This document shows, piece after piece, positions 3,891 through 26,629 of a stretch of DNA of 26,649 bases (its first letter is position 1; each line of letters starts with the position of its first letter). This DNA is from a virus, in IMG/VR virus record IMGVR_UViG_3300029319_000408, positions 1 to 26,649 of that record; one strand, written 5' to 3'. The position numbers and the translations under genes are program-made. The notes beneath the pieces were generated by a model. The model had not been told where the DNA came from and did not search any database. It worked only from the letters and a program-made list of their open reading frames with translations.

Positions 3891-4979
3891 ATGCAACTAC
3901 CTAAATCATATTGTGTGCTACCATACATTCATCAACACATAGACACCACCAACAGTCCTAGACTGTGTTGTTTTGCAAAAACATCTGCATATGATTTAAG
4001 CAAATTTGGCAATGAAGGATACCAACAAGCAAGACAGGATATGCTGGAAGGGAAACAGATAGCAGAATGTTCTGCCTGTTGGAAGAAAGAAGCACAAGGA
4101 CTTACATCAAGAAGACAAAGCAGTAATGCAAAATGGAAAGACAAACTGTTTGACATTGACAGCAAAGACATACTGTCCGTAGATTACTTGTACAGTAATC
4201 ATTGTAATTTTGCCTGTGTAATGTGCAGTGACTCATATAGTACCACGTGGGGTAAAATTAAGAAGAAAGTTATTGTGCATAATAACGATGAAATACTACA
4301 CCACGACACTTCCAAGATGGAACATATCTATTTGGCTGGCGGAGAGCCTTTCATGATTCCAACATATTTTAAACTGCTGTCATCTATCAAAGATAAAACC
4401 TATCCCGAAGTTGTTATCAATACAAATTTATCTAAACTAACAAAAGACTGGATTGATCTGTTGCAACAGTTTCCTAAGTTGTGTCTCACTGTCAGTGTTG
4501 ATGCTTACGGCGAACTAGGTGAATACTGTCGGTTTGGCAAAGACTGGCAGAGCTTTGACCAAAACATGAAAACTATTTTGGATAATAATATCACACACAT
4601 GTTCACTGTCGCTTTGACCAATCTAAACTATTTGGATTTTGATAAACTGGCTAATTGGATGTTAGATTATAAACCTGTTAAGGTCAATGTTACAGAAGTG
4701 GTTGACCCATATCAACTAAACTTTGATTATCTCAAAACTTATTATGCAGATATCTTTGCACAAAAAACTGCCCAATTTAGAGATCATGAAATATGCAATA
4801 AATTCAGTAATGTTGCAAACTTCTTTGAACAGCAGATCAAAATGAAAGACTTGACAAAGAACACATACACACAAGATGATTTCAAACAATTTGTAACAAA
4901 TCAGGATAGAATCAAGAAGGTTGATTTTGGCAATGTGCCTTGCACTTTGAATAACACCAAAGCAATCAGCATTAAATAA
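3891..4979 (+). CDS. Radical SAM protein (twitch-type, phage)
   Basis: 362 residues. The cluster motif Cys105-x3-Cys109-x2-Cys112 (CNFACVMC) binds the 4Fe-4S that cleaves S-adenosylmethionine, and GGEP at 150-153 is the SAM-binding motif. An N-terminal set of cysteines (Cys8, Cys26, Cys27, Cys60, Cys63 in ECSACWKKE) could hold an auxiliary cluster, as in SPASM/twitch proteins. Such proteins are common in T4-like marine phages and their substrates are unknown; peptide or nucleotide modification is possible. The ATG follows a tandem G-rich repeat instead of a clear Shine-Dalgarno. The stop codon is embedded in the late-promoter word of the next gene. Confidence 0.85.
   Translation: MQLPKSYCVLPYIHQHIDTTNSPRLCCFAKTSAYDLSKFGNEGYQQARQDMLEGKQIAECSACWKKEAQGLTSRRQSSNAKWKDKLFDIDSKDILSVDYLYSNHCNFACVMCSDSYSTTWGKIKKKVIVHNNDEILHHDTSKMEHIYLAGGEPFMIPTYFKLLSSIKDKTYPEVVINTNLSKLTKDWIDLLQQFPKLCLTVSVDAYGELGEYCRFGKDWQSFDQNMKTILDNNITHMFTVALTNLNYLDFDKLANWMLDYKPVKVNVTEVVDPYQLNFDYLKTYYADIFAQKTAQFRDHEICNKFSNVANFFEQQIKMKDLTKNTYTQDDFKQFVTNQDRIKKVDFGNVPCTLNNTKAISIK
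4972..4978 (+). promoter_or_regulatory. T4-type late promoter element
   Basis: TTAAATA overlaps the last codons of the radical SAM gene and ends five bases before the ATG at 4984, the same spacing as at 3516-3522. No Shine-Dalgarno is present, so a leaderless message is plausible. Confidence 0.5.
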
Positions 4980-20486: not shown

Positions 20487-21070
20487 TGTATCTTGTAATT
20501 TTAAAAAACTATCATTCTACCATTGAAGATATCATTAACACGCACGAAGATGTTAAGCCTAATGAAGTATGGACCGTATGGAGGCATCCATGGCAGAGGT
20601 TCATATCAGGAGTTTGGCATGACATTGTACAACATCAGACTACAAAAACCCCAAAAACCACCGATCATTACTTCACTGAAATAAAACAAAAACTCAGAGA
20701 TAAAAAATGGGTCAAAAAAATGATGCTCGGTACTAACGCAGAGCATGATGAATCAGGACATATGCAACCACAATGGCTACAAGTAAAAAGAGAATTGAAT
20801 AGACACAAAATTACAGAAGGCAGTGTAAGGGTGTATATGTCTCTTCGCGATGGCATTGCAAACCACTTTCCTGGATGTAACAAAATGCCTTGGATCAATC
20901 CAATGCCGTCTGGCATAGCACACAACATAGAATACGAAATAAGAGCAGTATGGCCTGATATTTCGCACATACATTATTTCTATAAAGATCAAGAATTATG
21001 GAAACAACTAAACCAAAATATGTATGGCTGGGATGACATTGGGGTAGACAAATTTAAACAAGGCATATAA
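20486..21070 (+). CDS. Sulfotransferase-like protein (194 aa), GTG start
   Basis: 194 residues started at a GTG that overlaps the previous stop (TAGTG). VWTVWRHPWQRFISGVWHD (about 28-46; Arg33 and Ser41) matches the 3'-phosphate-binding motif (R-x-P-x-x-R-x-x-S) of PAPS-dependent sulfotransferases of the carbohydrate type. The N-terminal phosphosulfate loop expected before it is not evident, so the protein may be shortened or inactive. If active it would add sulfate to a glycan or small molecule. The stop lies inside the promoter-like word ahead of the tmRNA. Confidence 0.45.
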   Translation: MYLVILKNYHSTIEDIINTHEDVKPNEVWTVWRHPWQRFISGVWHDIVQHQTTKTPKTTDHYFTEIKQKLRDKKWVKKMMLGTNAEHDESGHMQPQWLQVKRELNRHKITEGSVRVYMSLRDGIANHFPGCNKMPWINPMPSGIAHNIEYEIRAVWPDISHIHYFYKDQELWKQLNQNMYGWDDIGVDKFKQGI

Positions 21071-21073
21071 ATT
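21066..21073 (+). promoter_or_regulatory. Late-promoter variant ahead of tmRNA
   Basis: TATAAATT overlaps the stop of the sulfotransferase-like gene and would start RNA near 21079, at the 5' side of the acceptor piece of the tmRNA. Same variant as at 9925 and 11586. Confidence 0.4.
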
Positions 21074-21082
21074 ATTACTGTA

Positions 21083-21350
21083 GACGTTGAAGTGTAGAGA
21101 TACGATTGGCGGACGTCGGGGCAGTACCGACCACCTCCACCATATGGTGGCTTATGTAATCCCTTTCGGGGGTGAAACAGAATCGACGTGATCAGAAGGC
21201 TACATGGAGTTTGCCCAGTTGGAACGAGGTAACGGCCAAATTTATAAATGCAGACGAAAGTTATGCACATGAGGAACTTGCCCTAGCGGCGTAGTTCTAT
21301 CGGGGCGGCCCCTGCCTGGCAACAGAAGTGGGGCACTAACTCAGCAAAAA
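21083..21350 (+). ncRNA. ssrA: Permuted two-piece tmRNA (alphaproteobacterial type)
   Basis: tmRNA rescues stalled ribosomes and tags their products for proteolysis. Acceptor piece: a T-arm GTCGG-GGCAGTA-CCGAC (21115-21131), acceptor strand CACCTCC (21132-21138) and ACCA ending at 21142. After a short intervening loop comes the coding piece, starting GGGGGTG (21168-21174), which pairs fully (one G-T) with CACCTCC, then GAAACAGAATCGACGTG, typical of the 5' end of tmRNA. The tag frame runs GCA (21250) to TAG (21292-21294): ADESYAHEELALAA. GTGTAG (21092-21097) can pair with CTACAT near 21202, joining the pieces. GGCAACAGAAG near 21317 is a conserved 3' feature. The exact 5' and 3' ends are uncertain. 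Confidence 0.92.
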
Positions 21351-21362
21351 TTACCAATACAT

Positions 21363-21369
21363 TTAAATA
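21363..21369 (+). promoter_or_regulatory. T4-type late promoter element
   Basis: TTAAATA ends seven bases before the ATG at 21377; it could drive the 31-residue peptide and the thermonuclease. Confidence 0.4.
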
Positions 21370-21376
21370 CGCATAT

Positions 21377-21472
21377 ATGTTCGCACACAGAAAGATAAGA
21401 TTAATGTACAAACGTTTCATACGATGGGTAACCTATGATCCATCTAAACATTACATGAGGGGCAAACATTAA
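21377..21472 (+). CDS. Basic leader micropeptide (31 aa) before thermonuclease
   Basis: 31 residues, MFAHRKIRLMYKRFIRWVTY then DPSKHYMRGKH, with ten Arg/Lys. The stop overlaps the thermonuclease ATG (TAATG), and the ribosome binding site of that gene (GAGGGG) lies inside this frame, so it may couple nuclease translation. It could be a genuine basic peptide or only a leader; the overlap geometry favours translation. Confidence 0.4.
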   Translation: MFAHRKIRLMYKRFIRWVTYDPSKHYMRGKH

Positions 21473-23804: not shown

Positions 23805-25118
23805 ATGTTTCTAATTGTAGTAACTTTTATTTGTGCAATGGCCATATCAACTGTGGCCATATATTATTCTGTGTTAGGATTGGCGGCAATATTTGCGGCC
23901 GCCAAGTGGCCTATCATTATTATGGGAGGTGTGTTAGAAGTATCTAAGTTGGTCACAGCCTCTTGGTTATATCAGAATTGGAAAAACATTCCATTTTTCT
24001 TAAAAACATATCTTACCATAGCCGTTGTAGTGTTGATGCTTATAACCTCACTTGGAATCTTTGGATTTCTTTCTAGGGCACACATTGAACAGGCAACTCC
24101 TACAGGTGATGCTGTCGCCAAGATAGAAAGACTAGATTCGCAGATATTGAGACAAGAAACAACAATACAAAGTCTTATAGGAAAAATAGATAGATTACGC
24201 ACTGGTACAAGTGACACTGCTAAGGAACAGATAGAAAGAGAGCAAAACATTATAGAAAATGCTAATAATAAAATTGTAAAGGATGTTGAACTTATAACTT
24301 TACAAATTGATAATATCAAGGCAGAGATCATAGATATTCAAGCGGTAGCAGATAAGAAGATAAGCATAGAACAAGACAAGTTAAACACACTTGATGATGC
24401 CGTGAACACTGTGCTAAGTGCAAACAAAAATTTCTTCAATGAAGAACTTGAAGCCGCTAAATTACGTGATAGTCAGAAAAATGAAAGAGACTCAATTACC
24501 AAAAACATTGCATCAGCACAAGCAGATGCCGACGAACAGATTCAACCTTTAAGAAGTAAAATTGGCGATTTAAACGCACAAATCAGCACCTTACAAGCCT
24601 CTGTTGCAGACGAGATAGCCAGTGCCAAAGCAAGGATAGACAGCATCAACGAGGGTGCTATAACTGCCCAAGCAGATGCAGATATTACTATAGAAAACTA
24701 TGAAATACAAATTAATGAAGCATATGATACCATTGATGAACTTAATGCTGAAAAGTATATTGCAGAATCAAAAATACGAGAATTAACTGCTGAAGTAGGC
24801 CCAATCAAATATATCGCACAATTCTTTGATCGCGATGGAGAAGTTGACTTGGAAAGAGCAGTAACTTGGCTGATCATAATAATTATGTTTGTATTTGATC
24901 CCCTGGCTGTGCTATTATTAATTGCAGTAAACATGAGTTTGAAAGCAAGATATGGATGGTCATTCGAAGGCAAAGGCGCTTTGGATAATAACGGAAATGG
25001 CACAACTGTGATAGAGAAAGAAGTTGTGCGGGACGTTGGAGATAAAGTTGACCTAAGCATTCCGCCAGGCATACGCGAACTAGAAAAAAAGATATCAGAA
25101 AAACTTAAGAAAGGTTAA
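23805..25118 (+). CDS. Membrane-anchored long coiled-coil protein (437 aa)
   Basis: 437 residues. Three hydrophobic segments lie at about 2-33, 34-55 and 66-90, a long charged coiled coil at about 105-345 ([20 protein letters not shown] and similar), then one more membrane segment at about 360-385 ([20 protein letters not shown]) and a short tail. The tail at 415-437, [20 protein letters not shown], matches the C-terminus of the 72-residue protein at 26411. It precedes cytochrome b by two bases. GAGGGAG lies 13 bases before the ATG. Such proteins occur in marine T4-like phages without known function; a membrane scaffold is plausible. Confidence 0.65.
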
Positions 25119-25120
25119 AC

Positions 25121-26398
25121 ATGGACCACAAGCCTGTACAAACAAACAAAGTAGGCGGCTCTCCATTCAAAGGCATACTAGGATGGGTTGATGATCGGCT
25201 ACCAATTTTTAGAATGTTCAAACACGAATACTTGGATTTCCAAGTGCCAAAAAGTCTAAATTACTTTTGGAGTTTTGGCGGCATATTGATGTTCTGCCTA
25301 TTAGGTCTAATTGTATCAGGCCTAGTGCTAGGTATGCATTACAAACCAGATGCAGATGATGCATTTAATTCTGTTGAACACATTATGAGAGATGTTAATT
25401 ATGGATGGTTATTAAGATATTTCCATATGAACCTTGCATCATTTTTCTTCATTGCAGTTTATCTACATATTTTTAGAGCAATGTACTTTGGATCTTATAA
25501 AGACCCTAGACAAGTGATGTGGCTAATTGGAATTGTAATATTTTTCTTAATGGTTGCAACTGCATTCTTGGGGTATACTTTACCATGGGGCCAGATGTCT
25601 TTATGGGGAGCAACGGTGATCACTAATCTTGTAAGTGCAGTTCCGTTTGTTGGAGAGCCAATCGTTACCTGGTTGTGGGGAGGATACTCTGTGGGCGATC
25701 CCACTGTGAATAGATTTTATGTGCTACATTGGTTACTAGCATTTGTAATATTGGGTATAGTAATTCTACATGTCATTGCTTTACACATCACAGGCTCAAA
25801 CAATCCCTCAGGCATAGAACCTAAGGATACAAGAGACACAGTTACATTTCATCCATACACAACAATGAAAGACGTGTTTTTCATGAGTGTGTTTTTCCTT
25901 GTGTTTGCATTTTTTGTATTTTTTGCACCTAACATATTAGGACACCCGGACAACTACATTCCTGCCAATCCAATTGTTACTCCTGAACATATTGTGCCTG
26001 AATGGTACTTTCTGCCATTCTATGCCATCCTAAGAGCGATCCCAGACAAACTGGGCGGAGTGGTTGCCATGGTCAGTGCGATTGCAATCCTAGGACTGCT
26101 TCCTTGGCTGGATCGGAGTAAAATAAGATCTTGTATCTTTAGACCAATGCATAGACAATGGTTTATTATTTTTGTATTGAACTTTTTCTTACTAATGTAT
26201 ATTGGTGCAATGCCTGCAACAGGAATATATGTTACATTAGGACAAATAGGAACGGCATATTGGTTTGCATATTTTTTATTAATTGTTCCTATCAACAGTA
26301 TTTTCGAGAAACCAAAACCCATGCCTAAAAGCATACACGAATATCTCGAGTGGAAAAAACAGGGTAAAATAAAAAACGTGTTTAAATGGATGAAATAG
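25121..26398 (+). CDS. petB: Cytochrome b (bc1 complex type), complete
   Basis: 425 residues, the usual length for alphaproteobacterial cytochrome b, with eight expected membrane helices. In the bc1 complex it oxidises ubiquinol and drives proton translocation. Haem ligands are all present with canonical spacing: His102 and His116, His203 and His217. Qo-site PEWY is at 293-296 and [10 protein letters not shown] at 151-160. Qi-site residues are His222 ([10 protein letters not shown]) and Lys250-Asp251. No break or truncation. There is no cytochrome c1 or Rieske gene nearby in the window, so it would join host subunits. It lies two bases after the coiled-coil gene and 12 bp before the 72-aa gene. 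Its DNA shares the window-wide lack of GCWGC, so it is adapted to this genome. Confidence 0.96.
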
Positions 26399-26410: not shown

Positions 26411-26629
26411 ATGACAAATAAAAAACAAGAACAAATTAATCAACTTTGGGAACGATATGCTAAAACTTTAGGCTTACTAAATGCTACATTAGACGAACTT
26501 GAAAAGAAGCCTAAGGAAGTTATAGTTGAAGTTGAAGCAGATGTTGATCTTAGCACACCACCAGCTATAGCTGAACTTGAAAAACAGGTGCAAGAAAAAC
26601 TGAACAAAGATGACAGCACAGAGGAATAA
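26411..26629 (+). CDS. Small acidic protein sharing C-terminal motif with the 437-aa protein
   Basis: 72 residues. An N-terminal helix (QEQINQLWERYAKTLGLLNA) is followed by KEVIVEVEADVDLSTPPAIA and ELEKQVQEKL, closely matching the end of the 437-residue protein two genes upstream ([20 protein letters not shown]). AAGGAGG lies five bases before the ATG, the strongest binding site in this operon. The shared motif on both sides of cytochrome b suggests a common partner or a duplicated docking module. No other domain recognised. Confidence 0.7.
   Translation: MTNKKQEQINQLWERYAKTLGLLNATLDELEKKPKEVIVEVEADVDLSTPPAIAELEKQVQEKLNKDDSTEE

Follow-up and report, generated by a model that had tools for sequence, protein, structure and literature searches.

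Two-piece tmRNAs of the alphaproteobacterial type have been published for phages, namely for Melnitz and the pelagimyophages (PMC9004378), so the tmRNA gene described here is not itself new. In the Melnitz paper the two-piece tmRNAs of phage genomes number 53, of which 50 come from marine or aquatic phages; the roles suggested for them are ribosome maintenance or selective tagging (PMC9004378). The spacer between the two pieces (intervening sequence, IVS) is missing from the mature two-piece tmRNA (PMC11915505). In this study we analyse an IMG/VR virus record of 26,649 bases, and "the window" below means this whole stretch. The new aspect of its tmRNA gene is an invariant spacer, for which we found no description; our search of the literature on the function of two-piece tmRNA spacers gave nothing on a conserved one.

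The closest described systems are Melnitz and the pelagimyophages Mosig and HTVC008M. Like the window, they are marine T4-like phages (Kyanoviridae) with a permuted tmRNA and an LAA-ending tag, and no SmpB gene was found in them. They differ from the window in their tags (ANDNYVPVDYALAA, GEDNFALAA and ANFNEYALAA) and in their spacers, which are 142, 44 and 49 nt long and are without the 22-nt element described below. Melnitz is moreover reported with a glutamine riboswitch (PMC9004378), whereas none is found at the tmRNA gene of the window, where the Rfam matches belong to tmRNA families only. The alphaproteobacterial two-piece tmRNA (RF01849; Caulobacter ssrA) shares with the window the gene order, the pairing of T arm and acceptor, the G3-U70 pair and the CTGGCAACAGAA 3' segment, but the cellular relatives examined differ in their spacers, which have a median of 9 nt, and in their tags, for example ANDNRLALAA, ANDNELALAA and ANDNEMALAA. 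The Rfam family RF04321, tmRNA_permuted (PMC11915505), matches the window gene over its full length; it is a general permuted-tmRNA model and describes no conserved spacer element.

Layout and surroundings of the tmRNA gene

A circularly permuted tmRNA gene of the alphaproteobacterial type is found at 21080-21337 of the window (93-96 bits, E down to 2e-24). RF01849 (alpha_tmRNA) matches 21041-21337 with 93 bits and an E of 2.3e-24, RF04321 matches 21080-21294 with 96.3 bits, the gathering scores being 50 and 47 respectively, and ARAGORN reports a single permuted tmRNA (tmRNA*) at 21047-21385 with the tag ADESYAHEELALAA. The original prediction had claimed that the phage carries a permuted alpha-type tmRNA whose own tag ends in LAA, and had proposed a covariance-model search as a check; this search gave the alpha_tmRNA match, and with both scores above the cut-offs the claim stands. 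The landmarks it gave (CACCTCC, ACCA, GGGGGTG and the tag coordinates) match the sequence exactly, while the published phage two-piece tmRNAs and the conservation of the spacer had escaped it.

All features lie on the plus strand. The acceptor piece (21080-21142), supported by sequence, Rfam and covariation, comprises a 5' part, the T arm GTCGG-GGCAGTA-CCGAC (21115-21131), the acceptor 3' strand CACCTCC (21132-21138) and ACCA (21139-21142), that is, A73 and the encoded CCA (21140-21142). It is followed by the spacer (21143-21167), which as the IVS (PMC11915505) should be missing once the two-piece tmRNA is mature, and by the coding piece (21168-21337). The latter begins with the acceptor 5' strand GGGGGTG (21168-21174), which pairs with CACCTCC across the permuted gene, and continues with a D-arm-like region, the tag reading frame ADESYAHEELALAA with its stop TAG (21250-21294; final codons CTA GCG GCG TAG), and a 3' terminal helix region, GGCCCC...CTGGCAACAGAA...GGGGC (21307-21334), which covaries in relatives.

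The tag ends in LAA in every relative examined, always with an intact frame. The window tag differs from the tags of isolate-phage tmRNAs, and the cellular tags, taken from two alphaproteobacterial orders which may not be those of the host, are mostly 10 aa long and mostly start with ANDN. One small alphaproteobacterial genome (G450) has two strong tmRNA matches, of which the one in L361 carries the tag ANESYALAA, whereas most tags of that order are of the ANDN type.

The gene content of the window is that of T4-like and marine phages. Its ribonucleotide reductase NrdA is nearest to those of cyanophages and of Pelagibacter phage Mosig, at about 68-70% identity, and NrdB, a tail-spike-like protein, an exonuclease and a DUF6267 protein are also encoded. 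The tmRNA gene itself is flanked by a gene for a 194-aa protein without family match and by a staphylococcal-nuclease-like gene. Elsewhere in the window there are a radical SAM protein (3891-4979, plus strand), whose role in the phage is not assigned, and, among the phage genes, a complete cytochrome b gene (25121-26398, plus strand; Pfam Cytochrome_B and Cytochrom_B_C). Relatives of this cytochrome b occur on 22 IMG/VR contigs of up to 172 kb with 70-87% identity, and not in isolate phages except for one distant match in a Helicobacter phage record; the top match among the sampled cellular genomes is at 64%, and a literature search gave no report of a phage cytochrome b of this kind. The proteins on both sides of it (23805-25118 and 26411-26629) have a common C-terminal motif, VDLSxPPxIxELEKxxxEKL, which suggests that cytochrome b was inserted beside, or between copies of, one gene family.

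Relatives and compensatory changes

Relatives were gathered by the neighbouring protein, the 3' motif, the acceptor pattern, the spacer element and the tag, giving a phage tmRNA clade of 37 members once near-duplicates are removed. Close ones are L007 (99.5%), L002 (94%) and L008 (94%). Further relatives form one group at 78% with the tag DNESFIFEEELALAA, another with the tag ADEYAYEEELALAA or ADEYAYDGELALAA, and a large sister group with tags of 22-25 aa such as ANKRALGFADLTVGMSELRLAA. These sister-group tags (L295, L301 and L313 are examples) are unusually long and conserve an internal ALGFADL besides the LAA end; the variation in the corresponding codons 5-11 is mostly silent, a test of limited value because part of the set was picked by a pattern over the same codons. 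The clade occupies at least two gene neighbourhoods: one beside nrdB and the nuclease gene (the window, L003, L296 and L312), and an unrelated one in the sister group. A nucleotide search of isolate phages with the tmRNA locus as query gave chance matches only. A close cellular donor was also considered and rejected, the tree of acceptor and coding pieces being poorly resolved and placing the window inside no cellular group.

Compensatory changes were counted on the alignment for the T, acceptor and 3' helices. The T stem occurs as GTCGG/CCGAC, AGGAG/CTCCT, GCGAG/CTCGC, ACCGG/CCGGT and other forms, and the acceptor stem as CACCTCC/GGGGGTG, TGGCTCC/GGGGCCA, CGCCTCC/GGGGGCG and CAGCTCC/GGGGCTG, all of them fully paired. 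Over 23 distinct relatives, all 276 base-pair cells of the two stems are paired (276/276). Double changes number 41, compared with 11.2 in shuffles, and pairing drops to 55-59% in a control where the partner is slid by one column. Thus the acceptor/T-arm pairing, whose loss in related phages was named in advance as an outcome that would speak against a tmRNA, is retained. The U-G pair corresponding to the alanine identity pair G3-U70 is invariant (23 of 23 relatives). In the 3' helix around CTNGCAACAGAA the sequence varies and complementarity is kept in all 37 relatives, GGCCC/GGGCC being replaced by GGTCC/GGACC, GCAACTT/AAGTTGC or GGGGC/GCCCC. Judged from these alignments, the RNA is under selection for tmRNA structure, because the stems change in sequence yet stay paired; and the presence of a tmRNA gene, conserved with compensatory changes in related phages, is by the same comparison far beyond chance.

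Conservation of the spacer element

A near-invariant, phage-specific element of 22 nt, GGTGGCYTATGTAATCCCTTYC, lies in the spacer that separates the CCA end from the coding piece; in the window it occupies 21146-21167 on the plus strand (GGTGGCTTATGTAATCCCTTTC). Spacers of the phage clade are 25-33 nt long, while in 54 cellular genes they have a median of 9 nt (range 3-29) and are variable in sequence. An exact search finds the element on 47 viral contigs, and all copies not cut off at a contig end sit inside tmRNA genes. It is absent from 384 of the 385 alphaproteobacterial genomes sampled from the class, and the single match is in a metagenome-assembled genome (MAG) that has two phage-type tmRNAs beside its own. 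This MAG (G011, titled Rickettsiales MED657; L240, L241, L324, L325 and L353) also has a phage-type cytochrome b next to cytochrome b copies of its own; the phage-type genes in it hint at the host or at misbinning.

A second set of tmRNAs was chosen by the tag codons and not by the spacer, thereby avoiding circularity. Where the spacer is readable, most members have the element at 0-3 mismatches, and a different spacer is present in six. For the 26 element-bearing members of this set that are non-redundant, the identity of the element is 95.3%, compared with 62.5% for the T stems, 56.7% for the T loops and 56.6% for the D region (ungapped values, hence somewhat understated), and the acceptor stem alone is more conserved. 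By these alignments the spacer, the very part expected to be cut out, is among the best-conserved parts of the gene. The element is nevertheless not essential to every member, because several relatives with the same type of tag have a different spacer: in L326, L329, L332, L333, L342 and L346 the tag type is the same, the spacer is conserved in another form (like ATTTAAGCAATGAAACTTGA), and the acceptor stem is changed to CCACTCC/GGGGTGG.

In the predicted fold the CCA end is buried in CCACC/GGUGG, the GGGGG strand lies in an adjoining hairpin, and CUUAUGUAAU is unpaired between them. Both hairpins are predicted in five of the five element-bearing sequences folded, separate in three and inside a three-way junction in two, but their stability exceeds that of shuffles only mildly (z about -0.7 to -1.9). 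They show no covariation, as the strands they pair with are part of the acceptor end, which is invariant. Two other explanations of the spacer were rejected. A place within a reading frame does not fit the loop ahead of the element, whose length ranges from 3 to 11 nt and not in threes; as for an element known to Rfam, tmRNA families alone match.

Proposed working and rival readings

Taken together, we consider the locus to be a functional gene for a two-piece tmRNA in a T4-like marine phage, with precursor maturation most likely controlled by the spacer element, and we give this reading a probability of roughly 75%. Expression, the timing of transcription, processing, the use of host SmpB and protease, what the spacer does and any benefit to the phage are all inferred, as follows. 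Host RNA polymerase with the main sigma factor probably transcribes the tmRNA from a promoter directly upstream, in the order of acceptor piece, structured spacer and coding piece. The two local hairpins, at the CCA end and the GGGGG strand, would keep the halves of the acceptor stem apart, and a cut in the exposed AU-rich linker CUUAUGUAAU would let the stem form; host nucleases would remove the spacer, and the two pieces would then pair through the acceptor stem. Host alanyl-tRNA synthetase would charge the RNA by way of the G3-U70 pair, and together with host SmpB it would rescue stalled ribosomes, adding a proteolysis tag that ends in LALAA. The SmpB would have to come from the host, because no gene for it is found in the 12 phage records tested, among them the complete Mosig, HTVC008M and Melnitz genomes. 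As putative roles, rescue on degraded host messages and tag-directed degradation are both plausible.

The promoter is where the original prediction needs to be changed, since it had seen a late-promoter variant upstream of the gene and would thus make the tmRNA a late gene under a T4-type late promoter. TATAAAT is indeed present at 21066-21072 on the plus strand, about 7-13 nt before the expected RNA start, but this heptamer occurs eight times in the window against 9.1 expected by chance, and TATAAATA itself, the type of T4 late promoter that the phage late sigma uses, is absent. Most relatives lack TATAAAT. Instead, a -35-like TTGACA lies at a nearly fixed offset upstream of the tmRNA; in a few members, the window among them (21045-21050, plus strand), it reads TAGACA. 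After a further 15-18 nt comes TATAAT, TTTAAA or TTAAAT, some 7 nt ahead of the RNA start. Such a promoter stands at a fixed place in most of the 37 relatives, with a mean best score of 10.6 of 12 against 8.6 in shuffles. The copy in the window is weak: its TAGACA stands 15 nt from TATAAA or 17 nt from TAAATT, and comparison with shuffled versions of this stretch gives p about 0.09. Since the relatives have TTGACA-N15/18-TATAAT-like sites at the same place, TATAAAT seems to fit better as the -10 box of a sigma70-like promoter; the Melnitz authors likewise placed their tmRNA behind an early promoter (PMC9004378), and late transcription appears improbable. In many sister-group promoters (L282, L283, L285, L295, L303 and others) a palindrome, TTGAC-N5-GTCAA, includes the -35 box; it is operator-like in look and is absent from the window.

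As for the spacer, the main rival to a maturation role is binding by a protein of the phage or the host, such as a translational or RNA regulator, with the pre-tmRNA being regulated or acting as a decoy RNA; recognition of the single-stranded UUAUGUAA or of its AUG-UAA start-stop pair would be an example. The bases of the unpaired linker are conserved beyond the need of the two hairpins, which speaks for such binding, although on the whole we regard it as rather unlikely. T4 RegA selects RNAs containing UUAUGUAA, and RegA was rejected as the binding protein, since its family PF01818 is absent from all clade records tested, a 172-kb one included, and is found in Mosig, HTVC008M and Melnitz, all without the element. 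The length of about 25-33 nt and the near-invariant sequence would also suit a small regulatory RNA released on excision and pairing with other transcripts; this is very improbable, for complementary sequences are not enriched beyond the own copies in 462 kb of clade DNA, and an antisense role was rejected on the same grounds. Phages do acquire fragments of host ssrA (PMC9004378), and the whole gene might accordingly be a non-functional passenger captured from the host. We give this hardly any credence: it is already contradicted by the covariation in the alignments, with compensatory change in the T stem, acceptor stem and 3' helix admitting no exception, by the LAA-ending frame intact in all examined relatives, and by the other tags and short spacers of cellular genes.

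Returning to the control of maturation by the spacer, we tentatively suggest, at somewhat less than even odds, that an uncultured marine phage lineage has turned the spacer into a phage-specific control cassette of 22 nt, together with a tag lacking the ANDN start of most cellular relatives; equally tentatively, this cassette would set when, or whether, the precursor becomes active tmRNA. If the element does control maturation, it would be, to our knowledge, the first regulatory module in the spacer of a permuted tmRNA, and our literature search gave no such report. For the question of why phages carry a tmRNA, a conserved element in a part of the precursor that is presumably discarded offers a direct handle, since altering it would leave the mature RNA intact. 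Were the element to control maturation, it would reveal how ribosome rescue is timed by a phage in the course of infection.
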